Of a stretch of DNA of 64,000 nt, positions 79-5,261 are shown piece by piece; position 1 is the stretch's first letter; each line of letters begins with the position of its first letter. Below the pieces are notes generated by a model that was given only the letters and a program-made list of their open reading frames with translations, had not been told where the DNA came from and did no database searches. A program made the position numbers and the translations under genes. Source of the DNA: Candidatus Celerinatantimonas neptuna (GTDB taxonomy: Bacteria > Pseudomonadota > Gammaproteobacteria > Enterobacterales > Celerinatantimonadaceae); contig OU461276.1 of the NCBI GenBank assembly GCA_911810475.1, forward strand, positions 613,501-677,500. The letters run 5' to 3'.

Positions 79-342
79 TTAGTAATGATAACGACATGAC
101 AGGATTGTTATTGCTTGATCATCAACTGCATAAACCAAGCGGTTTGTATCGTCTATTCGCCGTGACCAGAAGCCAGCTAAGTTCTCCTTTAGTGGCTCGG
201 GTTTACCGATACCTTCAAAAGGAGAACGCTTAACATCTGTGATTAATTTATTGATCCGTTTTAATGTTTTCTTATCTTGTGTTTGCCAATACACATAGTC
301 GTTCCAGGCCTCATCAGTCCATGACAGTAAACGACTATTCAT
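79..342 (-). CDS. yoeB: YoeB-family mRNA interferase toxin
   Basis: Toxin half of a type II toxin-antitoxin pair. YoeB binds the ribosomal A site and cleaves mRNA; YefM neutralises it. The 87-residue protein follows E. coli YoeB almost end to end: DDYVYW-like N terminus, SPFEGIGKPEPLK, GFWSRRI, RLVYAV and the terminal CRYHY. The expected catalytic Glu, Arg and His are present (E of PFEG, R of WSRR, H of RYHY). The ATG at 342 is used; a TTG one codon upstream is also possible. The start overlaps the yefM stop by 8 bp, so translation is coupled. The gene sits inside an integron cassette that ends in a VCR-like attC. It looks intact. Confidence 0.95.
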   Translation of the reverse strand: MNSRLLSWTDEAWNDYVYWQTQDKKTLKRINKLITDVKRSPFEGIGKPEPLKENLAGFWSRRIDDTNRLVYAVDDQAITILSCRYHY

Positions 343-589
343 CAATCAAATCCCGTGCCGTCGTTTGACCAGCTTTGTACTGAGTAATTGAACGGTTCAA
401 ATGCTCAGCATTTGCTGGAGAACGCAACAAATGAACAGTTTCCATTAAGCTGTTGTAATAATCTAAGGACATAACCACAGCATCTTCGGCATCTCGGCGG
501 GTAATAACTGTTGTGTCGGCATCATTAACCACACCATCTAAGACACTTTTCAAACCATTACGAGCTTCAGTGAAAGATACGATTCTCAT
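335..589 (-). CDS. yefM: YefM-family antitoxin
   Basis: Antitoxin and autorepressor of the yefM-yoeB pair, 84 residues. It starts MRIVSFTEARNGLKSVLD, the usual Phd/YefM DNA-binding N terminus, and continues with VITRRDAEDAVVMS and DYYNSLMET, also typical. The acidic, flexible C-terminal part should wrap YoeB. The ATG at 589 is chosen because ACCTCC at 594-599 (GGAGGT on the minus strand) is a strong ribosome site at correct spacing and homologues begin with MR/MN...FTEAR. A longer frame to 631 has no ribosome site. TGTACA operator motifs lie just upstream. Confidence 0.93.
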   Translation of the reverse strand: MRIVSFTEARNGLKSVLDGVVNDADTTVITRRDAEDAVVMSLDYYNSLMETVHLLRSPANAEHLNRSITQYKAGQTTARDLIDE

Positions 590-600
590 AAGAACCTCCA

Positions 601-650
601 CATGTACAATTAACAGAACAAGTATATACACTCTATCTGAATATGTACAG
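601..650 (-). promoter_or_regulatory. yefM-yoeB promoter with two TGTACA operator motifs
   Basis: On the minus strand, TGTACA (644-649) serves as a -35-like element, 17 bp before a TATACT -10 box (621-626). A second TGTACA lies at 603-608 next to the ribosome site. E. coli YefM-YoeB represses through palindromes with the same TGTACA core, but there they lie about one helical turn apart; here the copies are 41 bp apart. A private promoter fits a toxin-antitoxin cassette. Confidence 0.7.
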
Positions 651-1977: not shown

Positions 1978-2008
1978 TATAGGTTCAGGGGAATACCCCC
2001 TGAACCTA
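1978..2008. terminator. Perfect 13-bp inverted repeat after the phosphatase gene
   Basis: ATAGGTTCAGGGG and CCCCTGAACCTAT enclose a 5-nt loop, five bases beyond the stop of the minus-strand phosphatase gene. Stem strength and place suggest a transcription end, but neither strand has a clear T-run after it. It could instead protect the mRNA 3' end. Confidence 0.5.
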
Positions 2009-2012
2009 TGGA

Positions 2013-3311
2013 TTACTGATGAAAAACAGGCAGGTTCAAACCGTCTTTTACCAACATTTTACTGGCATCTTTCACAAATAATTTCAGCGGACACAGCTCT
2101 CCTTGAGCCGTATGACGACATCCTTTAAATGCAAAATCAGCACTTAATAAGGGATGCTGATGATCCAAATAGGTCAACCGGCGCCATTGATCCAAACTGC
2201 GGGCAACGAAACGAACACGAACAAATTCTTTATGCGTTCCTTTCTCATGAAAACGCGTGAAGTTCAGACTTGCACCTGGCGGAATATCATTCGCAGGATA
2301 ATCTTTTAATGCCCAGTTAAAGCCCAGCATCGTCTGAATTTCAGCAATATTTGTATCATGTCCGACAAACATCACTAAAGGCCTACTCAAACGTTTATCG
2401 CCAAGCCAATGACGATGTAGTTTGGTTCCTTTTGTCAAAGCCGATAAAATCTGGCGCATCAGCAATGAACCACCATGAGCCGCGAATTCCGGCGTATCAG
2501 TCGCCAAATCATATCTTGCCGCATGAAGCGCCATTAAATCACGAACCGCATTTGCGTCGTAGCCATGCCCGAAAGCAACCTGACGAATGGGCAAATTATC
2601 GCTGTACTGCAGGCGAATAGTTTCACCAATTGTCGCGCCCACTGAGAGTGGTCCGGTGAAAGTTGGCTTTCCATCTGCTTTAAATTTTACCTTCCAGGGT
2701 TTATCTAAAAACTTACAGCTATTGCTATCCTTTGCGCAGACCGTCTGACGAATCAACTTCACTGCACTGGCATAACGCTTCGCAGCCTGCTCCGATGACC
2801 CCATCCGGGCCATAATCTGAGCTTTAATAACCTGCTTATCTGGATGAGCCTGTTTGAGGTGATATAACTCAAATAGCGGATCATATTTAGCGTGTCCGGT
2901 TTCAGGTACGATTCCACACCCCGGAAACATTCCATCAGCAAGGGCTTTTGCAGTCGTTTTAATACGTTGCTGAGAGCTTGCCCATAAAAAGACTTGATTA
3001 GAGCGAGGGCAACGGTTGGAATAACGCAGGTTAAACCCTTCTTGATGCCACTGCTTGAGTTGATAACTGGCCTGCTGCACAATTCCAGCATAACCATGCC
3101 CCGTCAGATGTCCATCAGCCACATAGAAATGGGGCCATTTTAAACCAGTCGCCTTATCTAGTTTCTCAGTATGCGTCTGAGGTCTCACTCCGTGGCGACT
3201 TAATGTCACCACTTTTTCTATCACAAATTGCGGAGTTGCCATAGCCACCTGACTCAACGAGCATGCTATAGCACCCAAGCAAATCCATTTTCCCAATTTG
3301 AATTGATTCAT
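2013..3311 (-). CDS. Periplasmic histidine acid phosphatase (AppA/Agp type)
   Basis: Hydrolyses phosphomonoesters in the periplasm, probably phytate or sugar phosphates. The 432-residue protein has a signal peptide (MNQFKLGKWICLGAIACSLS, cleavage near ATP at 25-27). The histidine phosphatase motif RHGVRPQT at 39-46 holds the phosphorylated His; the proton-donor pair HD at 318-319 (FVGHDTN) is present. Cysteines at about 101, 132, 192 and 199 fit disulfides of an exported enzyme. Length matches AppA phytase and glucose-1-phosphatase. It lies 17 bp after the KdgM-like gene and shares its Pho-box promoter, which supports phosphate scavenging. Phytase versus glucose-1-phosphatase cannot be decided from motifs alone. 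Confidence 0.9.
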   Translation of the reverse strand: MNQFKLGKWICLGAIACSLSQVAMATPQFVIEKVVTLSRHGVRPQTHTEKLDKATGLKWPHFYVADGHLTGHGYAGIVQQASYQLKQWHQEGFNLRYSNRCPRSNQVFLWASSQQRIKTTAKALADGMFPGCGIVPETGHAKYDPLFELYHLKQAHPDKQVIKAQIMARMGSSEQAAKRYASAVKLIRQTVCAKDSNSCKFLDKPWKVKFKADGKPTFTGPLSVGATIGETIRLQYSDNLPIRQVAFGHGYDANAVRDLMALHAARYDLATDTPEFAAHGGSLLMRQILSALTKGTKLHRHWLGDKRLSRPLVMFVGHDTNIAEIQTMLGFNWALKDYPANDIPPGASLNFTRFHEKGTHKEFVRVRFVARSLDQWRRLTYLDHQHPLLSADFAFKGCRHTAQGELCPLKLFVKDASKMLVKDGLNLPVFHQ

Positions 3312-3328
3312 TACACTAGTCCTGAGGA

Positions 3329-4021
3329 TTAAATTTTATACGAAAATCCCACTTCATATTCCGTTTGGCGCTTTGAAGATTTTGAACTAACCGATTCATT
3401 TTTGACTTCAACAAATGGTGTCCACTTTTTAGTCAGACTATAACTAGCGCTAACTTCATGTTGATAGTCATGGCGTGAATGATTATACAAATTCTTATTA
3501 CCCTGATAATAGGTATATTCATATCCCACTTGCAAAGCGCCAAAGCTATGACTCGCAGAAACATCATATCGATTAACTTGTTTTGTCGACTTTGTCTTGT
3601 AGTCAGTCAATTCATCACGATAACGAACCGCAAACTGAGTCTGTTTAGTCAATGCATATTTAATTTTCAGAGACGGTTTATATTTATACTCATCCTGTTT
3701 ACGGCTCCAGGAAAATCCTGGTTCAATCGCCCACTGGTGATCAAGTTTAAACGGATAACTAAAGCTCAGTTTAGTTTCGTGCCACCGGTCATCACGAAAC
3801 GCATGACCGCTATCGCCATTGGACTGTTCAGCAGGCTGAAACTTCAACTCAGCCGATGCTTTTAAACCAAACTTAAAATGATTTGATAACGTGAATTCAT
3901 CGGTATGAGTCCGTGAAACATCTTCATATTTATGGTCAAGTGAAATTTTAGCAGCAGATGCCTGAGCTGCCATACCCATACCCATGGCCATTATTAATGC
4001 ACTTACAACTTTCTTTTTCAT
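3329..4021 (-). CDS. KdgM-family outer-membrane channel
   Basis: Small 12-strand-type porin. The KdgM family passes acidic oligosaccharides such as oligogalacturonates and sialic acid. The 230-residue protein has a signal peptide ending ASA-AK at about 24 and then alternating strands with aromatic girdles (ISLDHKYEDVSR, HETKLSFSYPF, FAVRYRDELTDYKTK, VGYEYTYYQGNKNLYNHSR, YEVGFSYKI). The C terminus ends in a beta-signal, although Ile replaces the usual Phe. Many Lys and Arg in the strands suit anionic solutes. It is first in an operon with the acid phosphatase and directly behind a Pho box. I infer that it admits phosphorylated substrates for the enzyme; the known family substrates are uronates, so this is unproven. 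Confidence 0.85.
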   Translation of the reverse strand: MKKKVVSALIMAMGMGMAAQASAAKISLDHKYEDVSRTHTDEFTLSNHFKFGLKASAELKFQPAEQSNGDSGHAFRDDRWHETKLSFSYPFKLDHQWAIEPGFSWSRKQDEYKYKPSLKIKYALTKQTQFAVRYRDELTDYKTKSTKQVNRYDVSASHSFGALQVGYEYTYYQGNKNLYNHSRHDYQHEVSASYSLTKKWTPFVEVKNESVSSKSSKRQTEYEVGFSYKI

Positions 4022-4075
4022 CAGTTAGTTACCTTTATGCTTATCATTGCTTATCGAGATGAAGATTCGGGCAGA

Positions 4076-4110
4076 AAGATAAAAGAAATGTATGACAAAA
4101 AAATGACACG
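4076..4110 (-). promoter_or_regulatory. Pho box and -10 for the porin-phosphatase operon
   Basis: On the minus strand TGTCATTTTTTTGTCATA contains two TGTCA repeats exactly 11 bp apart (4104-4108 and 4093-4097), the PhoB-box layout. About 10 bp downstream is TATCTT (4081-4076), a fair -10 box, and there is no good -35 element. A PhoB box replacing the -35 is the class seen at phoA and pstS. The start codon lies 55 bp farther on. Confidence 0.75.
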
Positions 4111-4154
4111 GATTTTATTTAAAACCCTTATATGACGTAACGTTAGGGTATTTT

Positions 4155-4215
4155 TTGCAACTAAGTGCAATTATTTTTGAAACCAGGTGCAGTCAATTTT
4201 GCAACTAAGTGCAAA
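4155..4215 (-). promoter_or_regulatory. Array of six 11-bp repeats (unknown regulator)
   Basis: TTGCAACTAAGTGCAA occurs at 4155-4170 and 4199-4214, with the related TTGAAACCAGGTGCA at 4177-4191, all exactly 22 bp apart. Inside each, the GCA cores are 11 bp apart, so the block is six half-sites on one helical face. Each full unit is also an imperfect palindrome (TTGCA-N6-TGCAA). It lies about 45 bp upstream of the Pho box. The remainder of 4216-4356 is AT-rich with nothing recognised. Confidence 0.6.
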
Positions 4216-4422: not shown

Positions 4423-5058
4423 TTAGGCAAGCACACTTCGAACATAATCAGTCAAAACTGCATCCTGACTATTATCAAAGAAACACTGTTGAAATCTTTC
4501 ACCACCAACAGCAGTTTTTACAAGTTCTGGATCCAATGCTTTTAAGCCATCCAGATAATTTTTACCGGTTGCTTCTTTAACCTGATTTAAGATCCCGGCG
4601 TTTGCAACTTGTGATTCACGACGTTCTGGTGGGTAACCCAGGCCAGTTTCCCCCGTAAAGGCTTTTTCAAAAATATAGCGAAGATTCAGTTCAGCACCCC
4701 AGCCAAACCCTTTTGCAAACGGAATTGCCAATGCATTCCCATTATTAATTTGTGCAAACAAGTAAGCATCGGCGGGATCAATACAATAACCACAAACAAC
4801 ACCAGGATACGCATTCAACGACATCAATGCGCCTTGACCTGTTCCGCAACCAGCAACAACAAAATCAACCGCCTTGGAATTCAAAAACAAGCTGGCAATA
4901 ATCCCTAAATGGATATACGTCAAACGATGATCATTGTCGCCATTCATTCCGACATTAAAAATCTGATGGCCTTGCTCATCTGCAACAGCCTGCAATTCCT
5001 TGAGAATAATCGGGTTTTTCCCGGCTTGGCTGAATTCATTCATCAACGCGATTTTCAT
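4423..5058 (-). CDS. RpiB/LacA/LacB-family sugar isomerase
   Basis: Ketol-isomerase of the RpiB/LacAB fold, 211 residues. The VAGCGTGQGALMSLN segment holds the catalytic Cys and glycine loop of the family, and GYCIDPADAYLFAQINNGNALAIPF is the usual second conserved stretch. It is longer than RpiB (about 150) and matches the 210-215-residue branch that includes streptococcal DhuI, which isomerises the unsaturated-uronate product DK. A nearby KdgM-type porin makes uronate metabolism plausible, but no KduD or KdgK is in the window. GAGGA before the ATG supports the start. It is a single-gene unit with its own terminator. Confidence 0.8.
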   Translation of the reverse strand: MKIALMNEFSQAGKNPIILKELQAVADEQGHQIFNVGMNGDNDHRLTYIHLGIIASLFLNSKAVDFVVAGCGTGQGALMSLNAYPGVVCGYCIDPADAYLFAQINNGNALAIPFAKGFGWGAELNLRYIFEKAFTGETGLGYPPERRESQVANAGILNQVKEATGKNYLDGLKALDPELVKTAVGGERFQQCFFDNSQDAVLTDYVRSVLA

Positions 5059-5261
5059 CTTGCGATCCTCTTTCTATGTCAGTTTTACGACAAATATAAA
5101 ACAATGTTTCAATTAATGTACCACACTATTTCGATTTCAAAAACCTGTTTCTATCAGATAATTTTGAGGAGATTGATCCACTTCACTTTTTTCTTCTCTA
5201 AGCTTGCCAAATATGACGATATACATTCGCTGTACTGATGAAATGTTGATAAATCGCTGTC

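Follow-up and report, generated by a model that had tools for sequence, protein, structure and literature searches.

A channel gene and a phosphatase gene in a putative operon

The window, a stretch of 64,000 nucleotides from Candidatus Celerinatantimonas neptuna, carries on its minus strand a putative two-gene operon, in which a KdgM-family outer-membrane channel gene (3329..4021; 230 aa) is followed, after a gap of 17 nt, by a gene for a periplasmic histidine acid phosphatase or phytase (2013..3311; 432 aa). Pfam profile searches placed the first product in PF06178 (E 1.2e-32; 113.8 bits against a cut-off of 22) and the second in His_Phos_2 (PF00328; E 3.9e-24), in agreement with a preliminary description of this DNA that had recognized a KdgM-type channel gene next to a histidine phosphatase gene. 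Directly 3′ of the phosphatase stop codon lies a hairpin with a 13-bp stem and without a T run (1979..2009, minus strand; RNA fold −23.5 kcal/mol, z −4.2). A terminator scan downstream of the operon called no conventional terminator, this hairpin included; we nevertheless regard the hairpin as the probable end of the transcript.

The phosphatase contains the catalytic motifs RHGVRPQ, in which the last proline of the usual motif is replaced by glutamine, and GHDTN, together with a predicted phytase fold, and the catalytic motif residues are invariant across an 11-sequence alignment. Its best sequence match in the PDB is a Klebsiella phytase (2wnh, E 3.5e-73), and its AlphaFold model lies closest to 2wni/2wnh (TM 0.83-0.91, 33-34% identity); by sequence and by predicted fold, PhyK of Klebsiella sp. 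ASR1 (2wnh/2wni) is thus the nearest solved relative, ahead of AppA and Agp. An identity as AppA or Agp was rejected, as the scores (217 bits against 585 for AppA, 156 against 425 for Agp) fall below the NCBIfam equivalog cut-offs, and for this reason we label the protein PhyK-like rather than AppA. It is a PhyK-like enzyme of the phytase family, related to AppA and Agp, with an activity predicted from sequence. A decayed C-terminal fragment of a second phosphatase copy, containing stop codons and 74% identical over 65 residues, was found in the same genome (G000:C1 610995-611195, L048), and a phosphatase fragment likewise adjoins the phosphatase gene of the sister species.

The porin begins with what by inspection is a signal peptide, and its AlphaFold model is a 12-strand barrel of the KdgM/NanC type (mean pLDDT 78), for which the top Foldseek matches were NanC (2wjq/2wjr) and KdgM (4fqe/4pr7).

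Upstream of the porin gene, a two-unit PhoB box with an 11-nt period (GTGTCAT-TTTT-TTGTCAT, 4092..4109, minus strand) shows 0 mismatches to TGTCATN5TGTCAT, and a −10-like hexamer, TATCTT (4076..4081, minus strand), follows 10 nt downstream. The box, TGTCATTTTTTTGTCAT at 4092-4108, is the sole 0-mismatch match to TGTCATNNNNNTGTCAT in the window. The genome encodes phoB, and its own phoB promoter has the same spacing, with GTGTCATAAAAATATCAT followed after 10 nt by CATAAT. The arrangement expected of a Pho regulon member, a PhoB box with a −10 element at fixed spacing, is therefore present here, and the earlier reading of two TGTCA repeats 11 bp apart with a −10 at PhoB spacing holds exactly. 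Across the whole window, the PhoB pattern at up to 2 mismatches was found 5 times against 8.6 expected, without enrichment, so the case for PhoB rests on one strong, well-placed site together with its recurrence in relatives.

Other features of the region were noted in passing. A PhoB-like box with a higher matrix score than that of the porin promoter, TTGTCGTAAAACTGACAT (5076-5093, minus strand; 17.7), precedes the start of an RpiB-like gene (4423-5058) by only 17 nt, a distance shorter than is usual for an activator site. Two small genes at 79-631 (minus strand) resemble, by eye, a YefM-YoeB toxin-antitoxin pair. About 5 kb to the left of the porin-phosphatase pair, shortly beyond the left edge of the window, lies a phn C-P lyase cluster (G000:C1 603744-610115; L165 2744-9115) encoding PhnG, H and I, a GntR/UTRA regulator, two ABC ATPases and an amidohydrolase, a phosphorus-scavenging neighborhood.

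Recurrence of the pair and divergence of its porin

The porin-phosphatase pair recurs in the same order in Mangrovibacter yixingensis, Klebsiella indica, Enterobacter mori, two Tatumella and one Acinetobacter, and it is present in the sister species of the window's genus (L040). Sampling of 392 genomes of one enterobacterial family yielded five additional pairs (L059-L063), plus two whose gene order is reversed (L064, L069). Of 199 Moraxellaceae, three have the porin clade, and in each of these a copy precedes a phosphatase gene of the same family; in a class-wide sample of 369 genomes, the clade appeared in the window's own genome only. Both genes are also carried by Klebsiella pneumoniae plasmids, with the pair confirmed in the three that were inspected. 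The porin is not essential, since several relatives (two other Mangrovibacter, two Rosenbergiella and most PhyK operons) keep the phosphatase without it.

In a 64-sequence maximum-likelihood tree, the phosphatase-linked porins group together in a single clade (support 98/88), separate from NanC and from the remaining KdgMs, the sole nested exception being a second copy in the genome of Acinetobacter sp. HY1485 (L159). This second KdgM gene is itself succeeded by two genes for acid phosphatases of class A (PhoN type, PAP2), so that a different phosphatase family takes the place of the usual one in an otherwise equal arrangement. The phosphatase tree is divided: 17 linked enzymes group with that of the window, and two (L143, L144) fall among otherwise porin-less PhyK-type enzymes, in a clade that adjoins the structurally solved phytase PhyK (458 bits between the L143 enzyme and 2wnh) and has the reversed gene order. 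Because the linked phosphatases sit in two clades, one with reversed order, the linkage of this porin clade to enzymes of the phytase type has come about independently on at least two occasions, and this repeated joining is the strongest sign of a functional link. Chance pairing was rejected on the strength of the conservation and the two independent joinings. The genome-context comparison that had been proposed for relatives thus yielded a pair that is conserved, mobile, and joined at least two times with related but separate phytase clades.

The linked porins also differ in the distribution of their charges. Positions 29, 42, 221 and 223 (window porin numbering), which are 98-100% basic in an alignment of 44 unlinked KdgMs, have lost their basic residues in the linked clade, with 29 and 42 still partly basic; in the window porin they are D, E, E and E, so that the canonical KdgM basic residues are missing. 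Relative to the same 44 proteins, the linked porins have new basic residues at 79, 108, 113, 144, 147, 182, 199 and 207, and R133, R135, R218 and K115 are retained. As the protein matches the Pfam family and the barrel fold but lacks the canonical basic residues, it is, on the sequence comparison, a member of the KdgM fold family in a separate subfamily, and the rearrangement is compatible with an altered anionic substrate. An ordinary KdgM for acidic sugar oligomers, lying beside an unrelated phosphatase by chance, would share the PF06178 match, yet such a porin should not have shed the canonical basic residues, nor should its pairing have persisted in genomes far removed from one another and arisen anew in two phosphatase clades; we give this explanation next to no credence.

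Phosphate-control signatures follow the linkage. With a PhoB matrix derived from boxes that were confirmed upstream of E. coli MG1655 genes, the window promoter scored 15.6 (shuffle p 0.003), compared with at most 8.4 in 44-47 promoters of unlinked KdgM genes. PhoB-like boxes were enriched in linked over unlinked KdgM promoters (medians 9.1 versus 2.3, Mann-Whitney p 1.1e-7), also after removal of near-duplicates (p 1.8e-6), and the strong boxes were spread over separate groups. The anticipated upstream matrix hits in relatives are accordingly present as a recurrent feature of the linked promoters. Scores were weak for K. indica, E. mori and one plasmid promoter (4-8) and for G155, and a matrix scan of the sister species' porin promoter gave no clear PhoB box.

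PhoB boxes being the commonest signal among linked promoters, the porin might instead be a PhoE-like channel for inorganic phosphate, tied to the phosphatase only through common phosphate-starvation control. Against this speak the family to which the porin belongs, one of oligo-anion channels, and the constancy with which its clade stays with phosphatases; we consider such a channel very unlikely, and the shared operator described below weighs further against it.

A proposed inositol-phosphate gene set and a candidate LacI-type operator

In K. indica, E. mori and the Klebsiella plasmids, the pair is followed by genes for an ABC permease, an ATPase, a binding protein, an inositol-monophosphatase (IMPase)-family protein and a LacI regulator. 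The full cluster, comprising importer, binding protein, IMPase/DSP and LacI genes with the KdgM-phosphatase pair, forms one uninterrupted block in K. indica, E. mori, the K. pneumoniae plasmids and the sister species; in the last of these, the importer set immediately precedes the pair and shares its strand, and a gene for a PsiE homologue comes after the pair. The window's genome has the pair alone, with the ABC-IMPase-DSP-LacI set elsewhere (G000:C1, about 3.990-3.997 Mb). The permease and ATPase resemble the PhnU2/PhnT2 (2-aminoethylphosphonate) and UgpC (glycerol-3-phosphate) models, and the search for a solved relative of the binding protein gave none close enough to name its ligand. In Klebsiella, the IMPase carries a fused DSP-like phosphatase domain, whereas the window's genome encodes a DSP-like phosphatase (CX5R motif in NCRGGRSRS) in a gene of its own (L192 10982-11623). 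Many other enterobacterial phytase operons have the layout LacI-IMPase-MFS-phytase, with a PgtP/UhpC/GlpT-like MFS transporter, and L143 is such an operon with a member of this porin clade added. The inositol-catabolism gene iolE scores above its cut-off in the window's genome, as it does in 5 of the 9 other genomes tested. On three plasmids (L161, L162, L163), the whole inositol-phosphate set lies between insertion sequences (IS1, IS5, IS91, IS3), and on two of these, IncFIB plasmids from human and insect-gut isolates, it adjoins VapBC.

Upstream of the window porin, we found three repeats at 22-nt spacing (4153-4214), absent from the preliminary description, that match the palindrome TTGCAC-N4-GTGCAA. 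Copies 1 (4199..4214) and 3 (4155..4170), both TTGCACTTAGTTGCAA on the minus strand, agree at 11 of 12 positions, and the degenerate copy 2, CTGCACCTGGTTTCAA (4177..4192, minus strand), at 9 of 12. A genome pattern search located the window's own repeat, at no more than 1 mismatch, at one other site only. In the window's genome, the ABC promoter has a perfect TTGCAC-N4-GTGCAA, with a PhoB box (score 15.6, p 0.003) shortly downstream of it. Among importer promoters, the palindrome recurs in G001, G155, K. indica, E. mori and the plasmids; most of the sampled PhyK-type operons that include a LacI gene likewise have it at the promoter of the IMPase or phytase gene. Across 620 kb of sampled loci, sites matching at least 11 of 12 positions numbered 20, against a mean of 1.24 and a maximum of 9 for permuted half-sites, and 11 were perfect, against a mean of 0.05; nearly all lie within promoters of the inositol-phosphate and PhyK gene sets.

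Operator placement varies among these sets. No operator was found in the KdgM-first promoters of other species (L031-L037, L059, L060, L063, L157, L158, L161, L162), and the sister species' porin promoter has a 9/12 site only. The operator link at the porin gene itself is therefore limited to the window's promoter, with the related sets bearing the operator at the importer, IMPase or phytase promoter. With the operator in the window promoter and a LacI gene at L192 11620-12630, the two elements of the proposed regulon are both present in this genome, and we infer that the LacI protein binds TTGCAC-N4-GTGCAA and that the window operon is under LacI as well as PhoB control, the former in whichever sense. 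That the porin-phosphatase operon and the inositol-phosphate genes have this operator in common is a further argument against the inorganic-phosphate channel considered above.

A candidate phytate-scavenging regulon and its known relatives

Gene identities, recurrent linkage, a separate porin clade with rearranged basic residues, PhoB boxes and operators are the computed observations, and they are best explained by an operon that is likely the outer-membrane and periplasmic half of a regulon for scavenging inositol phosphate (phytate), under PhoB and LacI-type control. The KdgM-type channel subclade would admit phytate or lower inositol phosphates to the periplasm, where the PhyK-like histidine acid phosphatase would strip phosphates; the ABC importer of the second locus (G000:C1, about 3.990-3.997 Mb) would take up inositol (mono)phosphate, and the DSP-like phosphatase and the IMPase-family protein would complete dephosphorylation in the cytoplasm, allowing Pi and inositol to be used. 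Both operons would respond to phosphate starvation through a PhoB box and to the LacI-type regulator encoded beside the importer through its operator. The link to inositol phosphates is drawn because the clusters share an IMPase-family protein and organophosphate-type transporters and have the LacI operator in common. An earlier proposal, that the pair forms a dedicated outer-membrane route for a large phosphorylated anion such as phytate, gains support from the conserved pairing, the recurring signatures of phosphate control, the separate porin clade and the IMPase-linked gene set.

The principal competitor is general organophosphate scavenging, with a channel that passes phosphorylated anions of many kinds (sugar phosphates, glucose-1-phosphate, nucleotides, inositol phosphates) and a broad acid phosphatase for which phytate is only one substrate. 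The phosphatase does also match Agp (glucose-1-phosphatase) models, and the porin clade includes a member whose gene precedes two genes for non-specific acid phosphatases of the PhoN type, which suggests a wider organophosphate range. However, in both sequence and fold the enzyme comes closest, among solved structures, to the phytase PhyK rather than to Agp, and the repeated clustering with IMPase-family genes and the operator common to PhyK operons favor inositol phosphates. We regard general scavenging as unlikely, though the least unlikely of the alternatives, and retain inositol-phosphate scavenging as the preferred reading.

A broader proposal, on which we are evenly divided, is that a KdgM subfamily was re-tooled by moved basic residues into inositol-phosphate- or phytate-specific channels, a passive counterpart of phytate TonB receptors, as part of a mobile PhoB and LacI-type regulon in plant- and gut-associated gammaproteobacteria. 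Plants store phosphorus mainly as phytate, which also makes up a large part of the organic phosphorus in soil and feed. To our knowledge, its passage over the outer membrane to periplasmic phytases is little described, and control of bacterial phytase genes is likewise little described (PMC4642748). The locus supplies candidates for the channel and for the regulator, the latter with a precisely defined operator, along with an importer and enzymes of the cytoplasm, in a gene set that travels on Klebsiella pneumoniae plasmids. A literature search in which few subscription journals were covered returned no relevant paper tying KdgM porins to phytases or phosphate starvation and, within that incomplete coverage, no described LacI-controlled phytate regulon. 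What is known is the general plan, phytase genes adjoined by TonB-dependent receptors; what is new is the channel type, the regulon and its operator.

Several known systems share parts of this arrangement. AfuABC, an ABC importer of phosphorylated sugar long annotated as an iron transporter (PMC4546632), resembles the proposed ABC set in its phosphorylated-sugar cargo by analogy only, as no sequence match relating the binding protein to AfuA was obtained. E. coli AppA, a phytase with reported phosphate-starvation control (PMC4642748), belongs to the same histidine acid phosphatase family as the window enzyme (about 27% identical), but is encoded within appCBA, without a porin, IMPase or LacI gene. 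KdgM (4fqe/4pr7) and E. coli NanC (2wjq) have the Pfam family and 12-strand barrel of the window porin and likewise adjoin enzymes for the imported anion, as in E. coli nanC-nanM-nanS, whereas the window porin falls in a separate clade, has lost four basic positions and gained others, and has a phosphatase partner and a PhoB box. The Klebsiella PhyK LacI-IMPase-MFS-phytase operon agrees with the present set in phosphatase family and fold, operator motif, and IMPase-family and LacI genes; it differs in its MFS organophosphate-type importer and, in the sampled genomes, mostly lacks a porin, whereas the window's set includes a porin preceded by a PhoB box and relies on an ABC importer encoded at a second locus. 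Finally, phytase genes adjoin TonB-dependent receptors in, for example, Citromicrobium, where phytate import has been proposed (PMC3400609): there as here an outer-membrane uptake gene lies by a phytase gene, with a TonB-dependent receptor in that system and a KdgM-type channel in this one.
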